Source: Symploca sp. SIO2E6 | GTDB lineage: Bacteria > Cyanobacteriota > Cyanobacteriia > Cyanobacteriales > Coleofasciculaceae | NCBI GenBank assembly: GCA_010672425.1 | Contig: JAAHGR010000003.1 | Coordinates: forward strand, 1 to 32,181 | Length of the DNA stretch: 32,181 bases | Direction of reading: 5' to 3' | Shown: positions 2,139 through 32,161 of the stretch, one piece after another | How the letters are laid out: each line of letters begins with the position of its first letter | Numbering within the stretch: position 1 is the first letter of the stretch | The notes under the pieces: generated by a model | The model's input: only the letters and a program-made list of their open reading frames with translations | The model's database searches: none | What the model was told of the DNA's origin: nothing | Made by a program: the position numbers and the translations under genes

Positions 2139-5100
2139 TATTACGCCTTCTGGTGAATCTGTTTTAAAAAAACTAGGTATAGATACAATCGCAGTAAAAG
2201 CCATGAAACGAGGGATTAAGCGTTCTTCCTCTCGTGCGGTTATTAATTGGCTGACGAAATATAAACCTCATCCAGATGCTTCTAATTTAGAAAAAGTTAA
2301 AGGTTTGATGGAAGTGTTTTATCATCTATGTGAAATAAACTCTTTCAAACAAGCAAGTGAAATATTATTTACTATATTAAAGACCCCAACAAAAGAACAA
2401 TTACATAATCAACTTTATACTTGGGGATACTATCAAATACCCCTGACATTATACAGGAAAATCATCTATAAAATTGATTCTAAAATTGATGCAATTATTT
2501 TAAACAATAGTGGAAATGCATATCTAATTATGGGGGATTTTACCAAAGCAATTAATAATTATCAACAGAGCTTAAATATTGCTCAACATATAGGAGATCT
2601 ATCACTAGAAAGTCAATCCTTGGGAAATATAGGGAACTTTTATAAAGGTACTGGAAATTCAAGCAAGGCTCTTGAATATTATCAAAATAGTCTGAGAGTT
2701 GCTGAAAAAATCACAGATAATCAATTGATAGCAGGATGTTTAAGAAGTATTGGAGAAGCATATTTTGACTTAATTAACTATCAACAAGCAAGTTCTTATT
2801 TAGAACGATCATTAAAAATTGCTCAAGAAATACACGATGACCAAGAAGAATGTCAAAGCTTAGCAGGTCTAGGAAAAATTTACTTACTTCAAGAAAATGC
2901 GGAACAAGCTATTAATTACTATCAAAAAAGTTTATCAATTGCTAGAAAAATTAGTTCCCGGCATAGTGAGGAATCAGCTTTGGCAAGTTTAGGCAGTGCT
3001 TATTTTTTATTAGGGAATAATATTCAATCTGTTCAATATTTAGAAGAAAGTTTAACCATTGCCAAGGACATTAGTTATCCTCGCGGTCAGGAAAATAACT
3101 TGGAAATATTAGGAGCAATTTATCATCGTCAAGGTGATTATGAGCAAGCGATGGCATATTACCAAGAAAGTCTAAAAATTGCACGACAATTTCAAGACCT
3201 TTTTTGGGAAAGTCGCGTACTCAGAAGTATAGCAATGATTAATGCAATTGCAGAAAAATATGATAGTGCTATTCAATACTATGAACAAAGCAAAGAAATA
3301 GCACAGCAAATCGAAGATTACCCAGGAGAAGAAGCGGCATTAGCTTATCTAGGAACACTTTATAACGATTTAGAGCAACCTCTTAATGCTATTGAATGTT
3401 TTCAGCAAAGTTTAGCTATTTCAGAAAAACTTGAAGATTTACCAGCACAAGGAGAATATTTAGAAGACTTAGGAGAAGCTTATTATACATTAGAAGATTA
3501 TGACACTGCCCTTGATTATTTTCAAAAAAGCTTGATTATTAGAGAAAAAATAGAAGATTATCAAGGACAAGGAGAAGTGCTGCTAAATTTAGGATTAACC
3601 TACGAAACTCTTCAGGATTATCAAGCCAGGAATTACTACGAACAAAGTTTAGCGATCGCCAAGAAACTCCAAGACCCTTTGATGGAATTTAACGCTCTTT
3701 CCAGTTTAGGAGATTTTTATTCTATTTTAGATATAAGTAGTAAGGCGATTAAATGTTATCAGCAATGTTTGGAAATTACAGAAAAACCTAAAAATTCTGA
3801 AGAATTTGCTAATACAGAAATAAGTAGTAACTATAGCGAAATAATCTCAGAATTTCAGGAAAAAATAGCAGGTCTAGAGAGAGAAAGTCAATCTAATGAC
3901 AAAGTGCTAGATCTTATACCTATAGTACCTGATAGTAAATCTATTTTGGAGAAAATTGGTATCAATTCAACTCAAATAAAGTCAATTAAACCCCGTAGCA
4001 AAAGAAGTCAATATCGAGCAGTAGTTAATTGGCTGACGAAATATGAGACCAATGCAGATGCTTCAAGTCTTGACAAAGTCAAGGGTTTATTGGAGGTATT
4101 TTTCCATCTGTGTGAAGCTGAAGATTGGAAAAGAAGTAAAATTATTCTTTCGATTCAACTGAATACACCAAACTTGGAAGAATTACTTGTACAGTTAGGT
4201 AGCTGGGGTTATTATTCTCAACAGATTAATTGTTGTAGTAATCTTTTGGATAGATTAGATACCAATACTACTAGTATTTGTCTGAACACTATAGGAAATG
4301 CTTATAATGCTTTAAGCAACTTTTCAAGTTCTCTAGAATGCTACAACAGGGATCTAAAAATAACCAAAAATAATAATGATCGCCAAAGTGAAGGAATCAC
4401 TTGGAACAACATAGGAAACATTTACTTATTTGTAAATGATTATCCTAAAGCCATTGAATGTTGTCAAACAGCGTTATCTTTAGCAAAAGAAACAAATGAT
4501 CGGCAAAATCAGAGTAATACTTTGGGAACTCTTGGTAATATATATGACTCTTTAGGAGATTATAACAAAGCACTTGAATGTCATAAGCAAGCATTAAATA
4601 TAAGTCGAGAAATTTATGATATAAAAGGAGAAGGAAAGGCTCTCTGTGGACTAGGGTGTACTTATCGTAATTTGTGTAATTATCCTGAAGCGATCAAACA
4701 TCATAAGCAACATTTAGAAATAGTCACTATTATTGAAGATATAGAAGAAGAAGCTAATGCCTGGGGGAATTTAGGTAATGTTTATGATGATTTAGGTGAT
4801 TATCATCAAGCTATTTACCACCATCAAAGACAGTTAGAAATAGCACGAGAAATAAGCTCACCTTGGTTAGAAGGAAATGCTCTAGCTAATTTAGGTCTTG
4901 CTCACTTTTCTCTTGGCAATTATAAACAAGTAATCCAATATCAAAATCAGGCTTTAAAAATAGCTAGAGAAATAAAAGATCGCGAAGGAGAAGGTAATAG
5001 ATTAGGAAATTTAGGTCTTGCCTACTTTTCTATGGGAGAATATTCAACAGCCATTGAATATCATTCACTTCACTTAAAAATTGCTCGTGAAATTGGTAGT

Positions 5101-5634
5101 CGGCGTGATGAAGCTAATGCGTTAGGTAATATTGGTAATACTTATTATTTCATGGAAGAATATGAAAAAGCGTTAGATTATGCAAAACAACACTTATTGA
5201 TTTCGCAGCAATTAGGAGATCGTAGAGGAGAAACAACAGCATTCAATAATTTAGGGAATGCTTATGAGGCTTTAGGTAATGTACATAAAGCTATAGAATT
5301 GTATCGAAAAAGCATAGAAATTGCTAGAGAAATTGGTTATCTTACAGGGGAAGGAGAAGCCTTATGTAATTTAGGAACAACAATAAGTCAAAGCAAACAA
5401 TATTTAGAAGCTATCGAACATCTAGAAGCGTCTTTAGCTATTACCCAAAAAACTGGAGACCGCTATGTTGAAGCAATAACCTTATATAACTTAGCAGAAG
5501 TTTACTTGAAATTGAAAGATAAAAATAATGCTCGAAAATTTGCAGAGCAAGCATGGCAAACGGCTAATGAATTAGAAATGCCAGATGTTGGAGATTATCC
5601 AGAATTAATAGATAAACTAGAAACTAATGAGTAA
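2131..5634 (+). CDS. giant TPR receptor, fusion of two complete modules
   Basis: This 1167-residue protein consists of two units of identical plan. Each starts with a roughly 100-residue helical domain (residues about 8-110 and 601-705) with the signature SRAVINWLTKY / YRAVVNWLTKY and HLCE, followed by tandem TPRs with a period near 40 residues (LGNxYxxLGDYxxAIEYxxQSL). The same N-terminal domain opens the proteins at 5627 and 24845, so one ORF holds what are elsewhere two genes. The start ATG overlaps the ATPase stop (ATGAGTAG), implying translational coupling. The gene is visibly more AT-rich than the next module, suggesting a different age or source. By analogy with NLRs the TPRs would sense a ligand and the N-terminal domain may dock to the ATPase; both are inference. 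No signal peptide is seen, so it should be cytoplasmic. Confidence 0.9.
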   Translation: MSSITPSGESVLKKLGIDTIAVKAMKRGIKRSSSRAVINWLTKYKPHPDASNLEKVKGLMEVFYHLCEINSFKQASEILFTILKTPTKEQLHNQLYTWGYYQIPLTLYRKIIYKIDSKIDAIILNNSGNAYLIMGDFTKAINNYQQSLNIAQHIGDLSLESQSLGNIGNFYKGTGNSSKALEYYQNSLRVAEKITDNQLIAGCLRSIGEAYFDLINYQQASSYLERSLKIAQEIHDDQEECQSLAGLGKIYLLQENAEQAINYYQKSLSIARKISSRHSEESALASLGSAYFLLGNNIQSVQYLEESLTIAKDISYPRGQENNLEILGAIYHRQGDYEQAMAYYQESLKIARQFQDLFWESRVLRSIAMINAIAEKYDSAIQYYEQSKEIAQQIEDYPGEEAALAYLGTLYNDLEQPLNAIECFQQSLAISEKLEDLPAQGEYLEDLGEAYYTLEDYDTALDYFQKSLIIREKIEDYQGQGEVLLNLGLTYETLQDYQARNYYEQSLAIAKKLQDPLMEFNALSSLGDFYSILDISSKAIKCYQQCLEITEKPKNSEEFANTEISSNYSEIISEFQEKIAGLERESQSNDKVLDLIPIVPDSKSILEKIGINSTQIKSIKPRSKRSQYRAVVNWLTKYETNADASSLDKVKGLLEVFFHLCEAEDWKRSKIILSIQLNTPNLEELLVQLGSWGYYSQQINCCSNLLDRLDTNTTSICLNTIGNAYNALSNFSSSLECYNRDLKITKNNNDRQSEGITWNNIGNIYLFVNDYPKAIECCQTALSLAKETNDRQNQSNTLGTLGNIYDSLGDYNKALECHKQALNISREIYDIKGEGKALCGLGCTYRNLCNYPEAIKHHKQHLEIVTIIEDIEEEANAWGNLGNVYDDLGDYHQAIYHHQRQLEIAREISSPWLEGNALANLGLAHFSLGNYKQVIQYQNQALKIAREIKDREGEGNRLGNLGLAYFSMGEYSTAIEYHSLHLKIAREIGSRRDEANALGNIGNTYYFMEEYEKALDYAKQHLLISQQLGDRRGETTAFNNLGNAYEALGNVHKAIELYRKSIEIAREIGYLTGEGEALCNLGTTISQSKQYLEAIEHLEASLAITQKTGDRYVEAITLYNLAEVYLKLKDKNNARKFAEQAWQTANELEMPDVGDYPELIDKLETNE

Positions 5635-7165
5635 TGTTATACCTAAGCACAAGCAAGAGCCAGGAGATATTGTCCCCTCTAGTGATTCAGTTTTGGCAAA
5701 GCTAGGTATCAATCCAGCAGAAATTAAATCGGTCAATCCTCGCAGTAAACGCCGCCATTACAGAGCAGTTATCAACTGGCTGAAATACTATCAACCGGGG
5801 CCAGATACTCCAACGATAGTACAAATACGGGGCTGCTTAGAAGCCTTTCACCACCTCTGTGAAGTAGAAGCTTGGGACAAAGCCGCTGAAATACTTGGAG
5901 GAGGTGCAATGGTAAAAGTTACTCTCAATACGACGGATAGTTCTGAGGAAACTTCTTCTCTAGAAGAATTACATAACCAGCTAGGTATTCTGGGTTACTA
6001 TCCCCAACAGATAGAACTCTATCAGAGAATATTTGGCAAAGTAGATGCTGAACTAGATACTCTCTGCTTAAATGGCTTGGGTCTTGCTTACCGTCACCTC
6101 GGCAATAATCAAAAAGCCATTAATTATCATCAGCAACAATTAGAACTTGCTAGAGATCTTGGCGCTCAAGACAGTGTAGGCAATGCTCTGTGTAATCTAG
6201 GCAATATTTATGCTTTTTTAGGACAGTATCCCCAAGCTACCCAATATTACCAGCAATCTTTAGCCGTTGCTCGTGAGATATCTGATCATCAAGGTGAGGG
6301 TAAAGTTCTTGGGAACTTAGGTCTTGTCTGCCGACTTACAGGAGATTTTGCCCAAGCAATCCAATTTCACGTACAACATTTAGAAGTTGCCCAAGAAATT
6401 GATGACCGGGAAGGCTTGAGAAATGCTCTAGAAAATCTAGGAGTAATTTACTACTTGTTGGGAGATTACCAACAAGCTTTAGACCATTTTCAGCAAAGCT
6501 TATTGATGGCTGGTGCAGTGGCAAACACAACAGATGAAGCGATTACTCTAGGTAGTTTGGGTAATGTTTACTATGCTTTGCAAGACTACTCAACAGCAGT
6601 GAATTACCACCAGCAGCAGCTAGAACTATCTCGTGAAATTGGTTACTTGGAGGGAGTGGAAAAGGCTTTAGGGAACTTAGGTTCTGATCACCACGCTTTA
6701 GGGCAATACGATAGGGCAGTTGAATATCATCAGCAAAAGTTAGTCCTTGCCAGACAGCTTGGAGATCAAGAAGGTGAAGCAGCTACCTTAACCAACCTAG
6801 GCAATACTTACGTTTCTCTGGAGAAATACGAGGATGGCATTGAACATCATAAACAAAGTCTAGGAATCAGCATCAGCATTAGTGATCATTTTGCTTCAGC
6901 TACGGCAATTTTCAACTTGGGAGATGCTTACCGATTGCTCAAAGAATTTGACCAAGCTGTGTTACTACTTATGCGCAGCTTGTATCTCTTTAACTGCCTG
7001 AATTCTCCTCACCAAGAAACAGCCATGCTAATTCTCAGTAATATAGCATGGGAAATTGGTATAGATGTATACGCTGACTTACTAGAGGATAAGTTACAAG
7101 TAATTGAACAAGAAGGGAATGATCAAGAAGTGGCTAAGTTAAGAGAGCTGTTGTTTGAGAACTAA
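5627..7165 (+). CDS. TPR receptor protein, single module
   Basis: This 512-residue protein has the module plan of its neighbour once: a short leader, the conserved helical domain at about 20-125 (SKRRHYRAVINWLKYY, HLCEVEAWDKAAEIL) and about eight TPRs of the 40-residue type to near residue 460, then a divergent helical C-terminus. Its ATG overlaps the preceding stop by 8 nt (ATGAGTAA), the same geometry as the junction at 2131. It is less AT-rich than the gene before it. An insertion in the N-terminal domain (GGGAMVKVTLNTTDSSEETS, about 93-112) is absent from the other modules. The role is presumably as an alternative or additional sensor for the ATPase at 708. Confidence 0.88.
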   Translation: MSNVIPKHKQEPGDIVPSSDSVLAKLGINPAEIKSVNPRSKRRHYRAVINWLKYYQPGPDTPTIVQIRGCLEAFHHLCEVEAWDKAAEILGGGAMVKVTLNTTDSSEETSSLEELHNQLGILGYYPQQIELYQRIFGKVDAELDTLCLNGLGLAYRHLGNNQKAINYHQQQLELARDLGAQDSVGNALCNLGNIYAFLGQYPQATQYYQQSLAVAREISDHQGEGKVLGNLGLVCRLTGDFAQAIQFHVQHLEVAQEIDDREGLRNALENLGVIYYLLGDYQQALDHFQQSLLMAGAVANTTDEAITLGSLGNVYYALQDYSTAVNYHQQQLELSREIGYLEGVEKALGNLGSDHHALGQYDRAVEYHQQKLVLARQLGDQEGEAATLTNLGNTYVSLEKYEDGIEHHKQSLGISISISDHFASATAIFNLGDAYRLLKEFDQAVLLLMRSLYLFNCLNSPHQETAMLILSNIAWEIGIDVYADLLEDKLQVIEQEGNDQEVAKLRELLFEN

Positions 7166-22310: not shown

Positions 22311-22706
22311 ATGACCTTCAAAGAGCGCTTAATCAAAGAATTAGAACAAATCTCTGAGTCTCAATTTCCTACCATCCTCAACTTTCTTCATCAACTCCAG
22401 CAGCAACCAGCTCAAGAGTTGGAAGTTACCTTCAACCATCTGGTGCAACAATGGAAAGCTGAAACCCGTTTTCTTTCTGACCCCCATCAAATGGTACTCC
22501 ATCCTGCCTACCAGCAAATTATAGGTATGGGTGAAGCTGCGGTACCGCTATTACTGAGGGAATTGGAGAAAAAATCAGGGCGTTGGTTTTGGGCGATAAA
22601 GTCTATCACTCGTGAAGATCCTGTTCCACCAGAGGCAAGAGGACGAACTCAAGTAATGATTCAGGCTTGGCTAGATTGGGGACGGGCGAAGGGGTATCAA
22701 TGGTAG
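22311..22706 (+). CDS. conserved cyanobacterial hypothetical protein
   Basis: This 131-residue soluble protein has an N-terminal helical part (residues 1-55, Gln-rich) and a conserved-looking C-terminal part: HPAYQQIIGMGEAAVPLLLR resembles a single HEAT-like helical pair, followed by a PPEARGRTQVMIQAWLDWGR ending. I recall similar proteins in many filamentous cyanobacteria, often next to a small partner gene, but no function. The stop overlaps a short ORF by 7 nt. It has no obvious link to nadB upstream. Confidence 0.75.
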   Translation: MTFKERLIKELEQISESQFPTILNFLHQLQQQPAQELEVTFNHLVQQWKAETRFLSDPHQMVLHPAYQQIIGMGEAAVPLLLRELEKKSGRWFWAIKSITREDPVPPEARGRTQVMIQAWLDWGRAKGYQW

Positions 22707-22786
22707 GAAATGAGGCATGGCAAAACTTTGCCCGCGAAGCAATTGAAAAACAGTTTCCCCAAATAGAGCGATCGCTTTTGAGGTAA
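22700..22786 (+). CDS. 28-codon ORF coupled to the upstream hypothetical gene
   Basis: ATG at 22700 lies inside the last codons of the 131-residue gene (ATGGTAG overlap). The peptide reads MVGNEAWQNFAREAIEKQF then PQIERSLLR. The overlap and protein-like composition suggest a genuine short partner or a truncated copy of a longer one. The TAA follows a HIP1-containing segment (GCGATCGC), a common site of sequence change in cyanobacteria. Confidence 0.35.
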   Translation: MVGNEAWQNFAREAIEKQFPQIERSLLR

Positions 22787-22900
22787 ACCTCGCTGTATAA
22801 CAGGATACTTTATAAGAATAAAAGTTCTTTGTAACAAAACCTTTACACTACCAACTGAGACCAAAGGCCAAGGCTAGGATGAAAAATGAGTACAAAGATA

Positions 22901-22931
22901 TAACGTTTGGAGCTGACTCCTCCAAACGTTA
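22901..22931. promoter_or_regulatory. 12-bp perfect stem-loop upstream of small gene
   Basis: TAACGTTTGGAG and CTCCAAACGTTA pair perfectly around a 7-nt loop (CTGACTC). No T-run follows, so it is not a standard terminator. It lies 35 bp upstream of the ATG at 22967 and would form in the 5' leader of that gene, or serve as an operator. Confidence 0.5.
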
Positions 22932-22966
22932 AACTTTTGGCTCTAGTTAGTTATCGAGAGGTATAT

Positions 22967-23191
22967 ATGAGAGGTCCCCCTCCTTTAGAGATGCAGCAGC
23001 TCTTCTTGCAAGACCTGTTGGTTTTCATCTACGTGCTTGAACGTACCCTGAGGTATTTCGGCCTGCGTAGAAAATGGACTAAGAACAAAATGGTTAAGGC
23101 AAACTCAATGCTAAACGCTACGACTTACACAACCAGCGTTCTGTATTGCTTGATCTGTCTAGCTCAGCTTGTTCTTATTGGTCTTCAGTAG
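22967..23191 (+). CDS. small hypothetical protein with C-terminal hydrophobic helix
   Basis: This is a 74-residue protein starting MRGPPPLEMQQLFLQDLLVF. It has a basic middle (RRKWTKNKMVKAN) and a final hydrophobic helix (VLYCLICLAQLVLIGLQ) that could enter the membrane. ATG 22967 follows GAGAGGT at a good distance; the longer frame from 22907 starts inside the stem-loop and is rejected. I do not recognise it. It is followed by a possible terminator and then the second NB-ARC operon, so its position resembles that of the small membrane protein near the first operon, though on the other strand relative to it. Confidence 0.5.
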   Translation: MRGPPPLEMQQLFLQDLLVFIYVLERTLRYFGLRRKWTKNKMVKANSMLNATTYTTSVLYCLICLAQLVLIGLQ

Positions 23192-23209
23192 CTGCTGACT
23201 TGACGTTAG

Positions 23210-23244
23210 ATGTGGGGCTGGAGTTTATTCTTTTAGCTCCACAT
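23210..23244 (+). terminator. possible terminator after the small gene
   Basis: ATGTGGGGCT (23210-23219) pairs with AGCTCCACAT (23235-23244), with one G-U pair and a 15-nt loop. No uninterrupted T-run follows, so the assignment is tentative. Confidence 0.35.
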
Positions 23245-23342
23245 TTGAATTAACGCCTCATTTTACTCTCGTCAGAGTTAATACGAAAGCTACTCTAAAC
23301 TGCTCATATTGAGTCTAACGGTTGCTAGATAGGTTTGAGCGT

Positions 23343-23430
23343 ATCATATTCAGCTCTGATTCAGTTCAGTTTATGAGATAAGATGAAAGTGAGCCCAAAG
23401 TGAACCCAAAAATAATTTTGACTGTGTTAA
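23343..23430 (+). promoter_or_regulatory. upstream region of second NB-ARC operon
   Basis: Positions 23343-23368 and 23384-23395 repeat the two conserved blocks found at 614-639 and 656-667 before the first NB-ARC gene. Spacing of the second block to the ATG is 36 bases here and 41 there. They are the only clearly shared pieces of the two leaders. Confidence 0.55.
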
Positions 23431-24852
23431 ATGGCAGTTACCCTAAAAGCCTCACAAGAAGGACTAAATCTCGTCGATCAAGCTAGAAGAAGCAAAGGCT
23501 GGAGAGCCACAGCGTCGATTTGGTGCGATAATGCCGGAACCTCCGTAGCTACCTTGAAGCGGTTTCGGCAAGGAAAAGCTATCCAGCAAGATGCTTTTAT
23601 GGGCATTTGCCAAGCTGTTGGGGTTAATTGGGAAGAAATTATCGATGATACTCCTGCACCACCAACCCAAACCGGGATAGATTTTTTTGCCTATGATGAT
23701 GTTTGGGTAGGTCGAGAAAATTTAGTTGCCCAATTGCAGGAGAAAATTAAGGGGTCTTGTCGAGTATTGACTCTCTTGGGCATCACTGGTATTGGTAAAA
23801 CAGCCTTAGCAGAATGCTTGGCAGTGGAGTTAAAGGAAGATTGGTTACAGAGGAACTGGCATAATTTTCTTCAAGAAAACTTTGATGATGAAGCACAATC
23901 CCCTGATTTTGGTAGCGTAGCAGCAAGATGGTTGGAAAAGTGGGGGGAACCCCTTACCCCAGATGACCGTAAGGATACCCAGCGCTTGTTGTATCGTTTG
24001 GTGAGACATTTACGAGAAAATCGCCTTTTGGTGCTGATGGATTCTTTGGAGAAAATCCTCCAAGGCAATGAAGAGGAAGGATGGAGTGATTTTGCCGATG
24101 ATTGGTGGGTGAAATTTTTCCAAAGTTTCCTCTCGGCAGAATCTTGCCAAAGTCGGATTATCATAACTTCCCAGGATTTGCCTAAGCAGATAGAAGAAGC
24201 AGCAACTCGTTACCAAAATTTCTGGTATTGCCAACCTTTAACAGGATTGGAAGAAGAGGAAAGATTGCAATTATTCCATAAAACGGGGTTAGAAGTAGAT
24301 ACAGATTCGTCTAATAAACCTTATTTAGAGCGAATAGGAACGGCTTATGAGGGTCATCCCCTAGCTTTGCGAGTAATTGCGGGAGAAATTGGCAGTAGAC
24401 CTTTTTATGGGAATGTGGTGGCTTATTGGAACAAACATGGCAGTGAAATAGAAGAGGTAGAAAAAGCTATAGAAGAGGTAGAAACTAAGGGAATAACTGC
24501 TTCAGCTGATGATCAGTGGAACTTAGACCGCTATACTCGTGATTTGAGAAGGAAAGTGCGATCGCGGCTGCAAATCACTTTTAATCGCTTGGAAGAAGAG
24601 GTCAAGTCTGCTTATTTGTTACTTTGCGGGAGTTCAGTATATCGCTGTCCAGTACCGGAGGATTTTTGGTTATCCCATTTAGAGGATTGGGATTACGATG
24701 AGGATGAGCAGTTAGTAGCATTGGAGGCACTGCGCGATCGCCATTTAGTTGAGGAGGTAGTTGAAAAGGATAAATTGCAGCTGAGGCAGCATAATTTGAT
24801 TCGTAGTGTATCCTTGGAAAAGTTAAAGCAATTGGACGAGGAAGATGGGTAA
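23431..24852 (+). CDS. NB-ARC ATPase, paralogue of the one at 708
   Basis: This 473-residue protein is nearly identical in plan and sequence to the first ATPase: HTH-like N-terminus (1-75), VGRE near 94, Walker A GITGIGKT (117-124), Walker B LVLMD (200-204), SRIIITSQ, and GHPLAL (308-313). Differences are scattered substitutions plus a shorter acidic end (DYDEDEQ instead of DYDDEDEQ). The coding DNA is also highly similar, so the duplication is fairly recent or maintained by conversion. It overlaps its TPR gene by 8 nt (ATGGGTAA). It probably works with that receptor, now broken, or with receptors of the first operon. Confidence 0.9.
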   Translation: MAVTLKASQEGLNLVDQARRSKGWRATASIWCDNAGTSVATLKRFRQGKAIQQDAFMGICQAVGVNWEEIIDDTPAPPTQTGIDFFAYDDVWVGRENLVAQLQEKIKGSCRVLTLLGITGIGKTALAECLAVELKEDWLQRNWHNFLQENFDDEAQSPDFGSVAARWLEKWGEPLTPDDRKDTQRLLYRLVRHLRENRLLVLMDSLEKILQGNEEEGWSDFADDWWVKFFQSFLSAESCQSRIIITSQDLPKQIEEAATRYQNFWYCQPLTGLEEEERLQLFHKTGLEVDTDSSNKPYLERIGTAYEGHPLALRVIAGEIGSRPFYGNVVAYWNKHGSEIEEVEKAIEEVETKGITASADDQWNLDRYTRDLRRKVRSRLQITFNRLEEEVKSAYLLLCGSSVYRCPVPEDFWLSHLEDWDYDEDEQLVALEALRDRHLVEEVVEKDKLQLRQHNLIRSVSLEKLKQLDEEDG

Positions 24853-25966
24853 TATTACCCCTTCTGATGATTTAGATTTGGCGGAGCTTGGGATTGAGCC
24901 ATCTGCTATTAAGTCTATTCAGTCACGTTGGAAACGACATCATTACAGAGCAATTATCAACTGGCTTACAAAATACAAACCAGAGCCAAATGCATCTAAT
25001 CTAGAGAAAGTTAGAGCCTTCCTAGAAGCATTTCACCATCTTTGCGAGGTGGAAGATTGGGAAAAAGCTAGCAAAATACTTTTTATTCGACTCAATACAC
25101 CGACCAATGAGCAATTACACAATCAATTGAACACTTGGGGTTACTATCAGGAACAGATTGAGTTATACAACAGAATTATCGATAAGTTAACTCCCCGATT
25201 AGATGCTATTTTCTGCAACGGTCTGAGTAATGCATACGAATCTATTGCCAACTATAATCAGGCAATTGAATTTGCTCAAAGGAGTTTATCACTTACACGG
25301 GAAATATCGGAGCCCAGCATCGAGAGTTCTGCTTTAGTGAATCTAGAAGGACAGGGAGCAGCTTTGGCTAATCTGGGGGCAGTTTACGATTGCCTTGGAA
25401 ATTATTCTCAAGCAATTGATTACTCGAAGAGGAGTTTGGAGATCGCTAGATTAATCGGAGACCGCTATAGTGAGGGGAAAGCTTTGGGGAATCTGGGAAT
25501 GATTTACCATGCTTTAGGAGATTACAATCGATCAGTTGAATACCAGCAGGAATCTTTGGCAATTGCACAGGAGATAGGAGATTACCGAAGAGAAGGGCAA
25601 GCTTTAGGCAATCTGGGGGTAATTTATTTTTCTTTAGGAAACTACAAAGCAGCCATTGATTACGGACAGCAGAGTCTTGTTATTGCCAAGGAAATCGGCG
25701 ATCGCCTAGGTGAAAGTGAAGCATTGACAAATCTGGGAAATGTTTTTATTCAACTTGAGCAATATTCAGAAGCATTAGAATACTTAAAGAAATCGCTGAA
25801 TATTAGTCGAGCAATCGGTGATCGCCTAGGTGAGAGTGAAGCATTGGCAAATCTGGGAAATGCTTTTATTCAACTTGAGCAATATTCAGAAGCATTAGAA
25901 TACTTAAAGAAATCGCTGAATATTAGTCGAGCAATCGGTGATCGCCTAGGCCGTCCCGCATTTTGA
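24845..25966 (+). pseudogene. 3'-truncated TPR receptor gene
   Basis: This starts with the conserved helical domain (about residues 10-110: WKRHHYRAIINWLTKYKPEP, HLCEVEDWEKASKIL), then about six 40-residue TPRs. Genuine sequence ends at 25950 in the middle of the repeat array; the following five codons (RPAF, stop) come from pstA read on the wrong strand. The single-module paralogue at 5627 has about 140 more residues. The last two repeats are 120-bp near-copies. A 373-residue product could still be made and might function, so 'truncated' is safer than 'dead'. Confidence 0.8.
25711..25950 (+). repeat. two nearly identical 120-bp TPR units
   Basis: Copies 25711-25830 and 25831-25950 differ at only three positions by eye (A/G, A/G and T/C near their starts). 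Each encodes one 40-residue TPR starting GESEALxNLGN. The HIP1-like GATCGCCTAGG ends each unit (25700-25710, 25820-25830, 25940-25950). Recent duplication by slippage or unequal crossing-over is the simplest explanation. Confidence 0.9.
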
Positions 25967-26304
25967 GGTGTACTGGTGAGAAACTCCCAGTTAATTTGTC
26001 CTGCACCGTGCCAGACGATATCGCTTAAAATCCAGAGGAAGATGGCGGTGATGGAAATGGCGATTGTCCAGATTATAATTGTTGTTGGTTGTTGGTTGTT
26101 GGTTGTTGGTTGTTGGTTGTTTGTTGTTGGTTGTTGGTTGTTTGTTGTTTGTTGTTGGTTGTTTGTTGTTGGTTGTTTGTTGTTTGTTGTTGGTTGTTTG
26201 TTGTTGGTTGTTTGTTGTTTGGGAATTGGGAATTGGGAATTGGGGATTGTTCCCTTTGTCTTCCTTGTCTTCTTTAATCTTTGATTCTTTTTCATCACTT
26301 CCAC
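25951..26304 (-). pseudogene. pstA: pstA, 5' fragment only (phosphate ABC transporter permease)
   Basis: PstA is one of two membrane permeases of the high-affinity phosphate importer PstSCAB. Here only the N-terminal part remains: a low-complexity Gln/Asn/Thr/Pro segment, one membrane helix (TIAISITAIFLWILSDIVW) and the family motif GAGQINWEFLTSTPQNAGR. Sequence then switches at 25950/25951 into the opposite strand of the TPR gene, losing the rest of the permease. No ATG occurs between the low-complexity tract and the first helix, so the ATG at 26304 (or 26295) must be the start, which puts a heptanucleotide repeat inside the coding region. The fragment cannot form a channel, and no pstB is seen. 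It could reflect rearrangement or a misassembled junction. Confidence 0.85.
26081..26241. repeat. heptanucleotide STRR array (20 + 3 units) in the pstA 5' end
   Basis: Exactly 20 consecutive heptamers, each GTTGTTG or GTTGTTT, fill 26081-26220, followed by three GGGAATT units (26221-26241). On the minus strand this is in frame as a Gln-Pro-Thr-Thr-Asn-Asn-type repeat of PstA. A 7-nt change in copy number would shift the pstA frame; changes of three units would not. Confidence 0.9.
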
Positions 26305-26346
26305 CTTCTACGCACTTTAATCAAAGAATAAAAATATGAACTATTG

Positions 26347-26451
26347 ATATCATGTCCGGTTGAATACTTATCGTTAAGGCTGACGCACCGGACACGGGGA
26401 CACGGGGACGCGGAGACGTTTTTATTATAAGTAATTAGGCGGACATGATAT
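26347..26451. mobile_element. 105-bp MITE-like element between pstC and pstA
   Basis: Perfect 12-bp terminal inverted repeats ATATCATGTCCG / CGGACATGATAT, with similarity extending inward (TACTTAT shared between left end and inverse right end). The interior includes an octamer-type repeat (GACACGGG / GACGCGGAG) and no ORF. A single related end lies at 7866-7889. The size and termini suggest a non-autonomous DNA transposon; the autonomous partner is not in this window. Confidence 0.75.
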
Positions 26452-26453
26452 GA

Positions 26454-26523
26454 CTCATTACTCATTACTCATTACTCATTACTCATTACTCATTACTTAT
26501 TACTCATTACTCATTACTTATTA
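26454..26523. repeat. heptanucleotide STRR array (CTCATTA) at the pstC 3' end
   Basis: Ten heptamers CTCATTA or CTTATTA. The array overlaps the end of pstC: the last codons and the TAA stop (26507-26509) are made of repeat units. Confidence 0.9.
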
Positions 26524-27364
26524 CTTCAGCAACTGCTACTAATGCCAAAATTACCCCCATCAGCAACAAGCCACTAACAAATAGTGCTGAGCGATGATTG
26601 CCTGTGGCGTAGGCCATTTCTAGGGCAATATTGGCAGTAAGGGTCCGCATCGGTTCAAATAGGCTTTTCGGTGTCTGCACTACATTGCCACAAACCATGA
26701 GAACTGCCATAGTTTCACCAATGGCTCGTCCTGTTCCTAAAATCAAGCCGGTAAATAATCCAGACTTGGCAGCAGGAAAAATTACACCTCTGACTGTTCC
26801 CCAGCGGGAAAGTCCTAATGCGAATGCACCTTTGAGGTATTCTGGGGGGACTTTGGCAAAGCTGGCATCTGCGGTCAGGGCGATCGTTGGTAAAATCATG
26901 ATCGTGAGGATCGCAATTCCTGCGAGTAAACTAGTTCCCGGTGGCTGGAGGCTACCAATCAAAGGTACTAGCACCACTAAGCCCCAAAATCCGTAGACGA
27001 CGGAAGGGATACCTGCGAGCAACTCAATCAACCGTCGGTAGAGTCCAGCAATTAGTGAAGGAGCATAATATTGACAAAAGACAGCGGAGAGAATTCCTAG
27101 GGGTGCAGCTAAAAGTACAGCACCAGCCGTTACTAGCAGAGTCCCCCAAAGCATGGGGATAAAGTTGTAAAGATCCTCTGTTGGATGCCAGGAAGCATCT
27201 TGAAAGAAGCGCCTTAATCCCACTTGTCTGAGTACTGGCAGTGCTTCTGTGATCAGAAACACAGTAATCAGAACTACGATCATACCTGCGATCGCCGCTA
27301 AGCCTCGTAGTGTCCAAAGGAGGATTTTGTCTTTCGGGGGTAAATTGCTCTTACTATATCTCAT
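26507..27364 (-). CDS. pstC: phosphate ABC transporter permease PstC
   Basis: This 285-residue inner-membrane permease of the PstSCAB phosphate importer has about six hydrophobic helices. Family motifs include FIPMLWGTLLVTAGAVLLAA, GIPSVVYGFWGLVVLVPLIG and, in the ABC-coupling loop, ALGLSRWGTVRGVIFPAA, plus GTGRAIGETMAVLMV near the C-terminus. It starts at the ATG of MRYSK (27364), which has GGTGAG just upstream; a longer version from 27385 adds seven residues. Its last residues (VISNE) are encoded by an STRR array, suggesting the original end was overwritten. pstS lies about 105 bp upstream and the broken pstA about 200 bp downstream. Confidence 0.92.
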   Translation of the reverse strand: MRYSKSNLPPKDKILLWTLRGLAAIAGMIVVLITVFLITEALPVLRQVGLRRFFQDASWHPTEDLYNFIPMLWGTLLVTAGAVLLAAPLGILSAVFCQYYAPSLIAGLYRRLIELLAGIPSVVYGFWGLVVLVPLIGSLQPPGTSLLAGIAILTIMILPTIALTADASFAKVPPEYLKGAFALGLSRWGTVRGVIFPAAKSGLFTGLILGTGRAIGETMAVLMVCGNVVQTPKSLFEPMRTLTANIALEMAYATGNHRSALFVSGLLLMGVILALVAVAEVISNE

Positions 27365-27423
27365 CAGCTCACCAAGCAGTATCAATAAGCGCTATTTTTT
27401 GGGAGTTTGATACTGTTCTTTTC

Positions 27424-27470
27424 CCCATCTCCCCATCTCCCCATCTCCCCACACTCCCCACACTCCCTCC
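27424..27470. repeat. octamer repeats behind pstS
   Basis: CCCCATCT in three consecutive units, then CCCCACACT-type units. The array ends exactly at the pstS stop codon (27471-27473) and fills part of the pstS-pstC gap. Confidence 0.8.
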
Positions 27471-28319
27471 TCACTCCGAAAGTGGGACAAAGTTTTGCTC
27501 TTGAACAATGTCTTGTACAAGAGGCGATCGCGCAAATTTGATAAACTGTTGATCTAGTCCTGCTGGCTGGGTTTTGGTGACTAAAGTGAGGGAACGGGAG
27601 AGGGGAAATGTACCGTTGAGTACATTCTCTGTCGTTGCTGCTACCCCACCAACGGGTAGTAACTTAATCGGAACTCCTTGGTTAGTGCTATATTCTGCTG
27701 TCCCAATCGACACATAACCAATGGCATTAGGGTTACCTGCCACTGTTTTAATCCCCTGCTCATTATCCCCAATGACTACAGCTGCCTGAATCTCTCTATT
27801 TTTGAGCTGGAAATATTTGAGAAACAATTCTAAGGTAGAACGTCCTTCTGCTTTATTGACTACAGTAATCGGTGCATCCTTACCTCCTACTTCCTGCCAG
27901 TTGTCAATCTTCCCTTGATAGATAGCAACTATTTGTTCATCCTTGAGGGACTCTACAGGATTATCTTGGTGAAGGATAACACCAATACCATCACGAGCGA
28001 TCGCAAAACCCTGAAGATCCTGTTCTTCCTGCTTCAAATTGCGAGAAACCATGCCAATATCAGCTACTCCTTGGCGAGTATCGGCAATACCGCGAGAAGA
28101 GCCTCCCGTTTGCACATCCACCCGCACCTCAGGATGTTCTGCTTCAAAGCGCTTACCAATTTCCGACGCTAAAGGTGCTACTGTACTAGAGCCAGTTAAC
28201 ACTAATTTACCCTGCAAGGTATCAGTTGAGTTAGTAGCTGCTTGCGGAGGCTTACCACAGGATTGTAACCACAAGCAAGTGACTAAACCTAGAGAAATTG
28301 TTGCTAGAGTTTGTTTCAT
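27471..28319 (-). CDS. pstS: phosphate-binding lipoprotein PstS
   Basis: This 282-residue periplasmic phosphate receptor of the Pst importer has a lipoprotein signal with LQSC (Cys21). Phosphate-binding loops are LTGSSTVAPLA near residue 42 and QTGGSSRGIADTRQG near 75, with DIGMVSRNL and later VNKAEGRSTLELF and GDNEQGIKTVAGNPNAIGY. The start is the ATG at 28319, placing the signal peptide at the N-terminus; a longer open frame upstream is repeat DNA plus arsR antisense. No Shine-Dalgarno is visible because the leader is a heptamer array, so translation may be inefficient, leaderless or coupled. The gene follows arsR on the same strand, which suggests ArsR control in addition to or instead of a Pho box; I saw no clear Pho box. 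Confidence 0.92.
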   Translation of the reverse strand: MKQTLATISLGLVTCLWLQSCGKPPQAATNSTDTLQGKLVLTGSSTVAPLASEIGKRFEAEHPEVRVDVQTGGSSRGIADTRQGVADIGMVSRNLKQEEQDLQGFAIARDGIGVILHQDNPVESLKDEQIVAIYQGKIDNWQEVGGKDAPITVVNKAEGRSTLELFLKYFQLKNREIQAAVVIGDNEQGIKTVAGNPNAIGYVSIGTAEYSTNQGVPIKLLPVGGVAATTENVLNGTFPLSRSLTLVTKTQPAGLDQQFIKFARSPLVQDIVQEQNFVPLSE

Positions 28320-28326
28320 GATTGAG

Positions 28327-28392
28327 AATTGGGAATTGGGAATTGGGAATTGGGAATTGGGGATTAATAACTTTGAATTTTGAATTTTGAAT
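28327..28392. repeat. heptamer arrays filling the arsR-pstS gap
   Basis: Five AATTGGG units (28327-28361), a short spacer, then three TTTGAAT units (28372-28392). Together they occupy nearly the whole leader between arsR and pstS. Confidence 0.85.
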
Positions 28393-28407
28393 TGATCTCC
28401 CCATTCC

Positions 28408-28713
28408 CTAATCAAAACAAAGGAGGCAACAACCCAAATCAATTGCCTTGCCACCGTTCCTCTGCCGAATATTGGCTGCACAACGATAAAGCACTGCCTT
28501 GCCATCTCGCGTGGCTGTGACAAAACCCTCTTCCCGTAACACCTTGAGATGATGGGAGAGCAAACTCTGCTCAATACCTAAAACTGCATTTAGTTCCCCA
28601 ACATGTTTCGGTCCTTCCATGAGGATTTTGAGGACACTCAGACGAGTGGTATCCGCCAAAACTTTCAGCTTACGGACACATAAGGCTTGAGAGGAAGTGC
28701 TGTTTGAGTTCAT
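28408..28713 (-). CDS. arsR: ArsR/SmtB-family metalloregulator
   Basis: This 101-residue winged-helix repressor would be released from DNA by arsenite or antimonite. The core reads LADTTRLSVLKILMEGPKHV; the recognition helix is QSLLSHHLKVLREEG (50-63); the wing is TATRDGKAVLYR. The classical arsenic site in helix 3 (CVCxxC) is absent: the segment reads VGELNAVLGI. Cysteines are instead at 12, 78 and in a C-terminal cluster Cys95, Cys96, Cys99 (LGCCLLCF), a layout like the alternative site of Acidithiobacillus ArsR (Cys95, Cys96, Cys102, from memory). It lies downstream of arsS and directly upstream of pstS on the same strand. A perfect palindrome 33 bp upstream of its ATG is the probable operator. 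Confidence 0.92.
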   Translation of the reverse strand: MNSNSTSSQALCVRKLKVLADTTRLSVLKILMEGPKHVGELNAVLGIEQSLLSHHLKVLREEGFVTATRDGKAVLYRCAANIRQRNGGKAIDLGCCLLCFD

Positions 28714-28745
28714 GGTTTATAGTTGGCATGGATTGAATTGTCATT

Positions 28746-28767
28746 GATATGAACTTGAGTTCATATC
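28746..28767. promoter_or_regulatory. candidate ArsR operator
   Basis: The central 20 bases ATATGAACTTGAGTTCATAT form a perfect 9-bp inverted repeat with a 2-bp centre; one more pair (G/C) extends it on each side. It lies between the arsS stop and the arsR start, where an ArsR-family dimer would block the arsR promoter. The AT-rich symmetrical TGAAC/GTTCA core resembles known ArsR/SmtB sites. Confidence 0.75.
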
Positions 28768-28792
28768 TTGATGACAAAAAACTTTGATACCC

Positions 28793-29791
28793 TCAAATCA
28801 AAGCACCACCACAACTCGAACCACAACCCGCTGTGCAACCGTAGCAATAGGAAGCTGTACGAATCTCATCAATGAGATCTAAACTTCCTGCTGCTAGTAG
28901 CTTACTCACGGTTAAAGTCTCCCCTTTGTAAGACTTGGCTGCTAGATTTTCCATCTGGTTAAAGTCACAATCGTAAACATTACCCAGATAGTCAATCGAG
29001 AGTTCATCTCTGCACATTAAATGCTCCACTGTACCGGCATTGAAGTTACGCTCCAAAAATTCCAGATAGGGAGCATAAAGCTTCGTGCGTTGCAAATGAA
29101 ACTTGGTGCGTCCAACGGGTATATTGGTAATCGTAAATAGCTGGTTGAAGTGGATGTCAAAATGTTCTTGCAAGAACAGTTTATAATCTTGCTCCAACTT
29201 CACTTGATTGGGGGTCAGGGAAAAATTTTCTCCTAGAGGTAGTGGGGGATTGTACACTAAATCAAGGATTAACCTGGGGTCTTGACTATAACCCAACCGA
29301 TTGAGCCATTGAAGCGCTCGAATTGAGCTATCATAGACTCCATTGCCCCGCATTTTATCCACATTGTCTTCCAGATAGCAGGGTAAGGAGGCAACTACCC
29401 GTATCTGATGCTGGGCAAAATATTCCGGTAAATTCTCAAAACCTGACTCGAAATAAATTGTCAAGTTGGAACGAACAATTACCTCTTTATTGGTTTTCCT
29501 CGCTGCCTCTACTAAAGGCTTAAAACCATAATTAATCTCCGGGGCACCACCGGTGAGATCGACGATTTTAATTTGAGGAAACCGATAAATTAGTTCAATG
29601 AGCTGCTCACAAAGTTCTGGAGTCAGTTCTTCGGTTCGCTTCGGACCAGCTTCCACATGGCAGTGACTACAAGCCAGATTACAGCGCTTACCCAAATTAA
29701 CTTGTAAAACCTTGATCTGGTTTTTCGTTAAAGGAGTTTGCAGTTTTCGCTGGAAAGGTGTGACTGGTAAGACTGGTGTCTGAATCATCAT
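28793..29791 (-). CDS. arsS: arsenosugar biosynthesis radical SAM protein ArsS
   Basis: This 332-residue radical SAM enzyme matches the ArsS family, which joins the 5'-deoxyadenosyl group of SAM to dimethylarsenite on the way to arsenosugars. The cluster motif is CNLACSHC (Cys37, Cys41, Cys44). Conserved-looking segments are VDLTGGAPEINYGF, VRSNLTI and IDYLGNVYDCDFNQM. The C-terminus has a second Cys cluster, CYGCTAGCGSSCGG (Cys316, 319, 323, 327), fitting a SPASM-like auxiliary cluster or arsenic binding. GAGGT eight bases before ATG 29791 supports this start; 29788 is possible. It follows arsM by 50 bp, so the two are likely co-transcribed. The SAM-joining reaction is known from cyanobacterial homologues; assignment here is by motif and neighbour. 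Confidence 0.9.
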   Translation of the reverse strand: MMIQTPVLPVTPFQRKLQTPLTKNQIKVLQVNLGKRCNLACSHCHVEAGPKRTEELTPELCEQLIELIYRFPQIKIVDLTGGAPEINYGFKPLVEAARKTNKEVIVRSNLTIYFESGFENLPEYFAQHQIRVVASLPCYLEDNVDKMRGNGVYDSSIRALQWLNRLGYSQDPRLILDLVYNPPLPLGENFSLTPNQVKLEQDYKLFLQEHFDIHFNQLFTITNIPVGRTKFHLQRTKLYAPYLEFLERNFNAGTVEHLMCRDELSIDYLGNVYDCDFNQMENLAAKSYKGETLTVSKLLAAGSLDLIDEIRTASYCYGCTAGCGSSCGGALI

Positions 29792-29841
29792 TCTTATTAC
29801 CTCTGTCAGGTTAGTCGTAAGTAATTAACAACAATTGACAA

Positions 29842-30810
29842 TTAACAACAACCACCACCTGTGTAGTACCAAGTAGAATCGGTAACTAAAATTTCCCCCG
29901 GCTCAGAGATTGACAACTTCGCTGCCGTCTTATCACACACTGCTGCTGGTATGCCACGCTGGAGAATATGTCCAGCATTGTCATCAAAATACTCGTTTGC
30001 CCCCATATAAATACCCGTCTTGCCAGTAAAAATACAAGGACCATCTTCAGCAATTGGTACTTTGAAGGAAACCGAATCCAAACTTTCCAACAGCAGAGGC
30101 TGATCTAAATGGTAATTCTGGCAATCTAGTAGTCGGTAGGGACGTCGTGCTCGGATTTCTATCTGACCGAAGCCTACATCTACTAAATGTTGGGTATACT
30201 CTTCATAGGTCAGAGCACCAGAAAGACACATGGCTCTTAACCGTTCATCTTGCCGTAAATGGTCAGGAATCGGACAAGTGGCAATCGGGTCACTCATGAG
30301 CAGCCTTCCTCCTACCTTTAACACCCGGTAAGCTTCTTGCAGCGCTTTATGTAAATCAGCGGGTTCAAAGATATTAAACAGGCAATTTTGAGCAACCACA
30401 TCTACCGAAGCATCTGGCATCGGCAGATTAAAAGCATCTCCCTCCCGAATTTCCACAAAACTGGGGTCAAACCAAGGATTGTCCTGAGCCGCAATTTCCA
30501 GGTTGTGAGCAGCCGCTTCCCGCATCTCCTTAACCGGATCAACCGCAATGACACCGCCGGGATGCCGAGAAAAATAGGCAAATTGCAAAGCTTCCAAACC
30601 ACCACCAACACCAACATACAACACAGTCGGCTGCTTACTGAGTTCCGCTGGATGGACAGTAGTGCCGCAGCCGTAGTTCATTTCCTGCATTTGGAGAGGA
30701 ATCTTTAACTCTGGCAGCTGCAAGGGACTACTTTGGACACAACACAAACCAACTTCCGGTGTTTGAGCTACTTCGGCATAAAATTCGGCTGTTGTTTCAA
30801 GATAGGTCAT
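29842..30810 (-). CDS. arsM: arsenite S-adenosylmethionine methyltransferase ArsM
   Basis: This 322-residue SAM-dependent methyltransferase methylates trivalent arsenic; in arsenosugar producers its dimethyl product feeds ArsS. SAM motif I is VLYVGVGGGLEALQFA (63-78), and the acidic residue after strand 2 is in AVDPV. The arsenic cysteines expected for the family are present: Cys48 (NYGCGT), Cys143 (QNCLFNIF) and Cys195 (AMCLSGAL), plus extra pairs Cys23-Cys24 and a GGGCC C-terminus. The arsenosugar-type form has this long C-terminal domain (about 215-322). AAAGGA five bases before ATG 30810 supports the start. The upstream region is filled by heptamer repeats, with no ArsR-type palindrome like the one before arsR. 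Confidence 0.92.
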   Translation of the reverse strand: MTYLETTAEFYAEVAQTPEVGLCCVQSSPLQLPELKIPLQMQEMNYGCGTTVHPAELSKQPTVLYVGVGGGLEALQFAYFSRHPGGVIAVDPVKEMREAAAHNLEIAAQDNPWFDPSFVEIREGDAFNLPMPDASVDVVAQNCLFNIFEPADLHKALQEAYRVLKVGGRLLMSDPIATCPIPDHLRQDERLRAMCLSGALTYEEYTQHLVDVGFGQIEIRARRPYRLLDCQNYHLDQPLLLESLDSVSFKVPIAEDGPCIFTGKTGIYMGANEYFDDNAGHILQRGIPAAVCDKTAAKLSISEPGEILVTDSTWYYTGGGCC

Positions 30811-31451
30811 CTGAATCCTTTACTTAGTCATTGGTCATTGGTCATTGGTCATTGGTCATTGGTCATTGGTCATTGGTCATTGGTCATTGGTCATTGGTCA
30901 TTAGGATTGATCATACAAAGGACAAACAACAAACAACAAACAACAAAAGACAAAAGACCAAGGACAAAGTTTAACGTAAGTCCTAATCTACTAGGTTATT
31001 AAACTGTTGCTCAATGAGTTTTCCCTGAGAATAGGCTTTGTCTGTACTGAAAGTTTAGTATAGACACTGGGAAGTCTTCATGTGAACTAACACGGAGACA
31101 CAGAGACGCGGAGACGCGGAGACGCGGAGACGCGGGGACAGGGAGAAGAGAAATCCCACCTCATATTTCGTTCATCCCTCCCCATCTCCCAACACTCCCC
31201 ACACTCCTCAAAGAATCTACGCATTATTACGTAGTTAACTCTGCACACAGCACAATAAGACTCCGTATTTACCCTAATATCTCTGCTTCAGCTGGCTGTG
31301 CCTCTGCCTTTCTGCCTAAGTAAGCTGGATTTCATCTATCCCAGGAGGGGTGAATTGAGCAATCACCGGAAAATATTTACATTTTGTAATCTAAAATAGA
31401 TAATACTTCTGGATAAATTGTTCTGTTTGCAGCAGAGAGGAGGTGAAGTGT
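30811..31451. other. repeat-rich spacer upstream of arsM
   Basis: No gene was recognised. It contains ten GTCATTG heptamers plus a partial (30827-30903), an ACAAACA / AAAGACA-type run (about 30920-30965), and four GAGACGCG octamers (31103-31134) with related flanks. The promoter of arsM probably lies among or beyond these repeats. The GAGAGGAGG at 31434-31442 is the ribosome binding site of the gene at 31452. Confidence 0.6.
30827..30903. repeat. heptanucleotide STRR array (GTCATTG)
   Basis: Ten complete GTCATTG units (30827-30896) and a final GTCATTA. It begins 17 bp upstream of the arsM start codon, so it lies in the arsM leader or promoter. Confidence 0.92.
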
Positions 31452-31793
31452 ATGAATAGAGCCCTTAAGGAGTACAACCTCATGGTAATCGATTTAACAG
31501 AAAATGTGTTTGTTCATACCTCGCTCCCTAGTGCAAATCACGCAGCACTCAGGTCTGGATTTATTGGATATCCCATCAATCCTCGCTGGGGTGTCGCTAA
31601 GTTTCAGGCTTGGAGAACTGGACGTCAGTGGCGAGAGGCACTAGCGCAGGGTCAAATGATGGTGCGTTCGACTGATTCGATGCTGGTTCCCGTTACTGCT
31701 CAACAGGAGAACAAGGAAAATACCCCAACTACCAAAAATTTCCCTTTCCCTGTCTGGGCGAAACAGGTACTGAATTATAGCCACTCAGCCTAA
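31452..31793 (+). CDS. small conserved hypothetical protein
   Basis: This 113-residue protein starts at ATG 31452, eight bases after a strong GAGAGGAGG. A second in-frame ATG at 31482 also has AAGGAG at a good distance, and the protein-like sequence (MVIDLTENVFVHTSLPSANH) begins there, so the shorter form may be the product. The middle contains GYPINPRWGVAKFQAWRTGR and a WREALAQGQMMVRSTDSMLV segment; the C-terminus is polar. There is no membrane helix. I do not recognise a function. It is convergent with the toxin gene at 31904. Confidence 0.6.
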   Translation: MNRALKEYNLMVIDLTENVFVHTSLPSANHAALRSGFIGYPINPRWGVAKFQAWRTGRQWREALAQGQMMVRSTDSMLVPVTAQQENKENTPTTKNFPFPVWAKQVLNYSHSA

Positions 31794-31815
31794 ATGATGA
31801 TCTTAATTTTCAAGC

Positions 31816-31859
31816 TTGGGCGGTTATATGCTTCTCTAATCAGAACTAATACCGCCCAA
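31816..31859. terminator. stem-loop between convergent genes
   Basis: TTGGGCGGT (31816-31824) pairs perfectly with ACCGCCCAA (31851-31859) around a 26-nt loop. It lies between convergent gene ends and may act in both directions, but no T-run adjoins it, so it could equally be a repeat element. Confidence 0.4.
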
Positions 31860-31903
31860 ACTCTATGCTCTACGGTAAAACTATAAGCGATCGCACTAGA
31901 AAC

Positions 31904-32161
31904 TCATTCATAATGGCTCCATAGGCGTAAAATTTTAACAACTTTTTGTTCATCAAAGATCTGATAGACTAGTCGATGCTGAATATTAATTCTCCTAGAA
32001 TAATATCCCTGCATATCACCTACTAACTTCTCATATGGAGGATTGTAGGGATTGTCTTGTAAAGCTTCTAGTAGTTTTTGGGTTTTATTTTTGAGACCAG
32101 ATGCTGCGATCTTCTTGGCATCTTTAGCAGCTTGCTTAGATAAAACCACTTCCCATGTCAC
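31904..32161 (-). CDS. Txe/YoeB-type mRNA interferase toxin
   Basis: This 85-residue toxin of the RelE/YoeB superfamily cleaves mRNA at the ribosome. The YoeB-type residues are visible: Glu44 (PPYEKLVGD), Arg56/Arg57 (YYSRRINIQHRLVYQI) and the C-terminal His83-Tyr84 (LRLWSHYE), at positions like those of Escherichia coli YoeB. The start is GTG at 32161, overlapping the stop of the preceding antitoxin gene, the usual tight coupling. An ATG at 32156 is in another frame. It is accessory and unrelated to the arsenic genes. Confidence 0.88.
   Translation of the reverse strand: MTWEVVLSKQAAKDAKKIAASGLKNKTQKLLEALQDNPYNPPYEKLVGDMQGYYSRRINIQHRLVYQIFDEQKVVKILRLWSHYE

Follow-up and report, generated by a model that had tools for sequence, protein, structure and literature searches.

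A conserved putative operator and a linked phosphate importer accompany an ArsR-type repressor in Symploca sp. SIO2E6 and other bacteria

In the cyanobacterium Symploca sp. SIO2E6, a gene for an ArsR/SmtB-family repressor lies directly before genes of a Pst phosphate importer and follows a conserved inverted repeat. We consider it likely that arsR-pstSCA forms a unit for phosphate uptake that regulates itself and is induced by arsenic. The genes are found in a stretch of 32,181 nucleotides (assembly GCA_010672425.1, contig JAAHGR010000003.1, positions 1 to 32,181; hereafter the window), which is contig C661 of an 8.96-Mb draft genome that is 97% complete. It has long been asked how cells maintain phosphate uptake when arsenate is a competitor at the same transporters. 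Comparison of sequences suggests that the entry of arsenic probably causes cells to switch on a special phosphate importer. A repressor-importer unit that occurs in six or more phyla and combines a conserved operator with a diagnostic loop change in its binding protein makes the question of phosphate versus arsenate directly testable.

In the proposed mechanism, an ArsR dimer bound to the repeat at 28746-28767 would, without arsenic, block the promoter of arsR and of the downstream pst genes. When trivalent arsenic rises in the cytosol, as As(III) or as methyl-As(III), Cys12, Cys95 and Cys96 would form the site that binds it, ArsR would leave the DNA, and the Pst importer would be produced whatever the state of the Pho system. 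The importer would then sustain phosphate entry while arsenate competes at ordinary transporters, a task for which the changed PstS loop, KAEGRST, may make it suitable. PstB would be supplied from an unlinked gene on contig C499.

The inverted repeat ahead of arsR

The window arsR gene (28408-28713, minus strand) encodes a winged-helix ArsR domain that scored above the cut-offs of NF033788 (76 bits, cut-off 55) and PF01022, and pstS (27471-28319, minus strand) follows it directly, as had been predicted from the sequence alone. Between arsS and arsR, 33-54 bp before the arsR ATG, lies a putative ArsR operator, the inverted repeat GATATGAACT-TG-AGTTCATATC (28746-28767). The original prediction had placed a perfect ArsR-like palindrome at 28747-28766; the inverted repeat is indeed present before arsR but extends further on both sides, with 10-bp arms, GATATGAACT and AGTTCATATC, around a 2-nt centre (10-2-10). 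It was the sole inverted repeat in the window with arms of at least 10 and a spacer of at most 6, and when the 79-bp arsS-arsR gap was shuffled 3000 times, such a repeat arose 3 times. The site was unique in the genome at up to two mismatches. The operator before the window arsR is of the TGAA-N6-TTCA, 12-2-12 type, a form that we take to match the 12-2-12 sites of the ArsR/SmtB family.

The repeat was conserved in other genomes. Orthologs of the window-type ArsR (at least 118 bits; the next ArsR homologs scored at most 40 bits) were found in 17 of 57 related genomes, a set that includes two sister genomes of the same genus. The operator was present in 16 of these 17 loci, mostly at an equal distance; its arms are constant and the centre varies. 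Three of the 16 carry TTTA for TTCA, and one (L059) has a weaker TGAA-N6-TTCA match. Among 80 named ArsR relatives from across phyla, 79 loci could be scored, and the operator ATATGAA-N6-TTCATAT was found before arsR with no more than three mismatches in 61 and no more than four in 73, where shuffles averaged ~6. Extra operator-like sites with two mismatches in the relatives were no commoner than with a reversed control, and only sites with zero or one mismatch were followed. Two extra perfect sites in genome G039 were considered as new targets and rejected, as both are contig ends that fall within a repeated arsR copy.

The original prediction grouped arsM (29842-30810), arsS (28793-29791), arsR and the pst genes together as one same-strand group. 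All are on the minus strand, but the operator follows arsS, no copy of it was found before arsM in the window, and a weak terminator-like hairpin (CTTTGAT-N8-ATCAAAG-TTTTTT; 28776-28803, minus strand) ends arsS, so that in the window arsMS is probably transcribed separately from arsR-pst. This possible terminator was recognised from sequence and fold. In the window, the minimum-energy fold pairs this region differently, a stronger and clear hairpin is found at the equivalent place in the sister genome L046, and other loci keep the T-run at the end of arsS without a hairpin; the case for a terminator after arsS in the window is only suggestive. Induction of the whole row from arsM to pstA as a single ArsR-controlled operon would agree with the shared strand and with Anabaena UHCC 0204 and a Pleurocapsales strain, in which arsM and arsS closely follow pstB (arsR-pst-arsM-arsS). 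Given the position of the operator and of the hairpin, and since arsM of Synechocystis is not controlled by ArsR (PMC4284471), we regard it as unlikely. In one relative (G016), an IscB-like open reading frame (ORF) lies between arsS and arsR (L050, 9214-10485), and no operator was found between this ORF and arsR.

Linkage of arsR and pst across bacteria

The core unit is arsR-pstSCAB and not the whole row from arsM to pstA. In 15 of the 17 loci of the relatives, the pst genes come right after arsR or are separated from it by a small insert. In the cross-phylum set, arsR was directly followed by pstS in 65 of 79 loci when scored by script, and in ~69 when overlapping or broken pstS ORFs were counted; the genes behind arsR in these ~69 loci are pstSC(A)B. 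The arsR-pst loci in the tree came from Cyanobacteriota, Nitrospirota, Planctomycetota, Verrucomicrobiota, Acidobacteriota and Myxococcota, that is, from at least six phyla. An even draw of 386 genomes of the phylum contained ArsS in 162 genomes, the window-type ArsR in 6 and a matching PstS in 9, and in all six genomes with this ArsR the matching PstS was immediately beside it. This distribution looks like that of a transferable cassette.

In genome G007, the pst genes lie 20 kb away from arsR-arsM, where they adjoin an arsR remnant and have their own copy of the operator with one mismatch. Since linkage and operator are kept across phyla, and the split pst genes of G007 retain the operator, comparison strongly supports the predicted control of pst by the window ArsR. 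Alternatively, ArsR could regulate only itself; pst would then depend mainly on a phosphate-controlled promoter of its own, and its linkage to arsR would be historical. The arsR-pstS gap, 88 bp in the window and 140-300 bp in some relatives, is in keeping with such a promoter, but the gap is at most 65 bp in most loci. A scan with a consensus found no Pho box above shuffles before arsR, pstS or arsM in the window. Together with the cross-phylum linkage and the pst-side operator of G007, this makes self-regulation alone improbable. A Pho-box match before arsR in two of six relatives was reached by only 2 of 60 shuffles and was judged to be due to chance.

Two loci have a different importer. In L059, the genes after arsR encode a PhnDCE-like ATP-binding cassette (ABC) transporter in the place of Pst (3000-5541), and in L157 such a transporter stands beside arsS in the Pst place (3689-6301). 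These replacements argue for phosphorus supply as the shared task. In Leptolyngbya-like genomes (L123, L124, L126 and L132), the same type of ArsR is encoded divergently from an apparent kinase-like gene and an ABC transporter.

The attachment of arsM and arsS was more restricted. Only some cyanobacteria have it: the genes are attached in 13 of the Pst tree's 69 rows, a pattern that requires five or more changes along the tree, of which branches with good support force two. In Symploca, Moorena and Aphanothece, arsM-arsS precede arsR-pst; other arrangements are arsM-arsR-pst, and arsS-arsR-pst with arsC and acr3 nearby. In Hydrococcus (L111), the same type of ArsR precedes an arsM-like gene, which is followed by an aquaporin gene. 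Pit-like permease ORFs, named from sequence only, adjoin arsM on L162 (1669-2103) and arsS on L154 (1255-1707) in genome G039.

The ArsR cysteines and the PstS loop

Cys12, Cys95 and Cys96 of ArsR were conserved in the 17-row and 80-row alignments and were invariant in 21 diverse rows. Known three-cysteine sites were not matched: the window ArsR has no CVCDLC (type 1 CxCxxC), and a third C-terminal cysteine beside C95-C96 is not conserved. Like the As(III)-responsive ArsR types 1-3 and ArArsR, the window protein is a small ArsR/SmtB repressor with three cysteines and a putative operator in its own promoter. In contrast to the cysteines of those proteins (32/34/37, 95/96/102, 15/16/55 and 41/80/82), those of the window ArsR are at 12/95/96, a set that is not among the described ArsR types (PMC11868830). 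A two-thiol site for methylarsenite, by analogy with SpArsR, is possible. As an arsenic sensor, the window-type ArsR would add a further cysteine arrangement for arsenic biosensors.

We infer induction by arsenite from the ArsR family, from the three invariant cysteines, from arsM, arsS, acr3, arsC and aquaporin neighbours in several genomes, and from the precedent of Agrobacterium tumefaciens 5A. In that strain, ArsR1 represses pst1/phoB1, as determined by electrophoretic mobility shift assay and RNA-seq, and arsenite induces pst independently of phosphate (PMC7965956; reviewed in PMC7533571). The ArsR1-pst1/phoB1/phn1 system (PMC7965956, PMC3834237) has what we propose here, an ArsR that represses a second Pst, with a Pho-controlled Pst elsewhere. 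It differs in that its arsR does not head the pst genes, the motifs of ArsR1 are different and not 12-2-12, and arsenite oxidase (aio) genes are in the island. In the window, arsR stands at the head of pst, preceded by a conserved operator of its own; aio genes were not found near ars/pst among the genes annotated at 22311-32161.

Associations of arsenic and phosphate genes have been reported before. A survey of 2013 covered the pst and phn operons of arsenic islands (PMC3834237). Huertas et al. (2014) pointed out that arsR lies ahead of pstS in arsenic clusters of cyanobacteria, and suggested that the two genes are regulated together (PMC4284471). These arsR-pstS(sphX)-gap3-arsJ-acr3 clusters (PMC4284471, PMC3610870) resemble the window in that arsR precedes a PstS gene among arsenic genes. 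Unlike the window, in which importer genes follow arsR beside arsM-arsS, they have pstS alone, without pstCAB and with arsJ, gap3 and acr3, and their ArsR types are possibly different. The original prediction was therefore right in kind, with precedent both in A. tumefaciens 5A and in the cyanobacterial suggestion. New here are the cross-phylum arsR-pstSCAB module, its operator, the ArsR cysteine set and the PstS loop, for which no earlier description was found in a partial coverage of the literature. The arsenic island of Halomonas GFAJ-1 likewise contains pst genes, and deleting either pst operon left arsenic resistance unchanged (PMC5930303), so a resistance role should be assumed here only with caution.

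Several observations weigh against an arsenic-inducible uptake unit. Outside the arsM/arsS group, most arsR-pst loci lack a nearby arsenic gene, and these include two cyanobacterial plasmids that carry the unit. In the window copy, as assembled, pstA is interrupted and pstB is absent. Arsenic represses the phosphate transport genes of Synechocystis (PMC4010505), a strain whose Pst may not be linked to ArsR. In Nodularia, which has arsR-sphX-gapdh-arsJ, phosphate limitation slightly raised the PstS-like gene (log2 0.75-1.2) and lowered arsR (PMC9846622), with an ArsR of a possibly different type. The many loci without an ars gene, the wide range of metals sensed by ArsR/SmtB proteins and the absence of type 1 and type 2 arsenic sites would also suit an ArsR whose signal is not arsenic but redox stress or another thiol-binding metal. 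We think this has little probability, as the gene is recurrently linked to arsM, arsS, acr3, arsC, arsI-like and aquaporin genes, and three thiols fit As(III).

The window PstS, a lipoprotein of the phosphate-type binding family (PF12849; TIGR02136 at 193 bits, just below the cut-off of 206.6), has the predicted fold of a phosphate-binding protein (predicted local distance difference test, pLDDT, 90.7). Its best match in the PDB, at 35% identity, was 4gd5, which has bound phosphate, and the nearest solved structures are phosphate-binding proteins. The loop RxxGSGT or a close variant is found in E. coli (Arg135, Ser139-Thr141) and in solved relatives, in contrast to KAEGR[S/A]T in the ArsR-linked PstS proteins. 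The window sequence, KAEGRST, did not match the canonical phosphate loop R..[GS]SGT. Of 69 linked PstS proteins, 54 have KAEGRST and 7 KAEGRAT, most of the others are single-letter variants, and K-x-x-G-R-x-T is present in 67. A second PstS of the same genome, on contig C998, keeps R...SGT. The loop change could alter the selectivity between phosphate and arsenate, or the ligand.

If the ligand is altered, the ArsR-induced importer might not be mainly for phosphate and might bind another oxyanion or an arsenical, such as arsenate for arsenosugar synthesis. The positive charge added in nearly all linked PstS proteins at a position usually held by a small serine, and the retention of the canonical loop in the C998 protein, would fit this. 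However, the fold and the nearest structures are phosphate-binding, arsM/arsS are missing from most loci, the PhnDCE-like replacements point to phosphorus, and importing arsenate during arsenic stress would harm the cell, and we therefore find such a ligand quite unlikely. For phosphate uptake, the original prediction invoked the better discrimination of Pst systems compared with Pit. This argument does not apply here, as a search of the genome found no Pit-family (PF01384) permease and detected the family in control genomes. Any selectivity would therefore be that of this Pst versus the other Pst of the cell. A broader proposal, which we put forward only tentatively and with some doubt, is that a mobile, cross-phylum arsR(C12/C95/C96)-pstSCAB module encodes an untyped class of trivalent-arsenic sensor that switches on an importer whose remodelled KAEGR[S/A]T loop rejects arsenate better than ordinary PstS, so that cells would swap importers under arsenic.

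The gene row and its assembly

The genes upstream of arsR encode both arsenosugar families above the curated cut-offs. The arsM product is an arsenosugar-type arsenite methyltransferase (NF038099, 576 bits, cut-off 400), and arsS encodes the arsenosugar biosynthesis radical SAM protein (TIGR04167, 415 bits, cut-off 300; PF12345 and PF04055). Downstream of pstS, pstC encodes a permease (26507-27385, minus strand; likely start ATG 27364; TIGR02138, 249 bits, cut-off 196). No Acr3 was found by a search of this genome; Acr3 was detected in control genomes.

The predicted row arsM-arsS-arsR-pstS-pstC-pstA holds for its first five genes, which are on the minus strand with scores above or near the family cut-offs. 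The sixth is represented only by a 5' fragment of pstA (25951-26100, minus strand), and the interval 26507-30810, given for the whole row, spans arsM to pstC only. The fragment encodes ~45 PstA residues before the frame enters a TPR gene at 25951. On contig C784 of the same genome, 123 identical bases (positions 105-227 of C784) are followed by a complete pstA, and in both sister genomes an intact pstA comes immediately after pstC. The join is either a chimeric contig or a real local break, and a mixture of strains is possible. The TPR gene at the join (window 25940-25966) has 120-bp repeats, and the pstC-pstA spacer also differs.

The arsR-pst locus lacks pstB in all three genomes of the genus, and a PstB ortholog on contig C499, 79% identical to the PstB of the Moorena cluster, is unlinked. 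Of the Pst set, this genome has pstS and pstC in the window, pstA broken here and intact on C784, and PstB on C499; the set is complete in most relatives. Strains with an intact unit include Moorena bouillonii, Nostoc carneum NIES-2107 and Pseudanabaena galeata CCNP1313, the last with a plasmid copy. Close to the contig end, the window has a gene for a Txe/YoeB-family toxin (31904-32161). The intergenic gaps at 26079-26230, 28330-28360 and 30830-30900 are filled with short low-complexity tandem repeats (GGTTGTTGGTTG, GGGAATTGGGAATTG and TTGGTCATTGGTCA).

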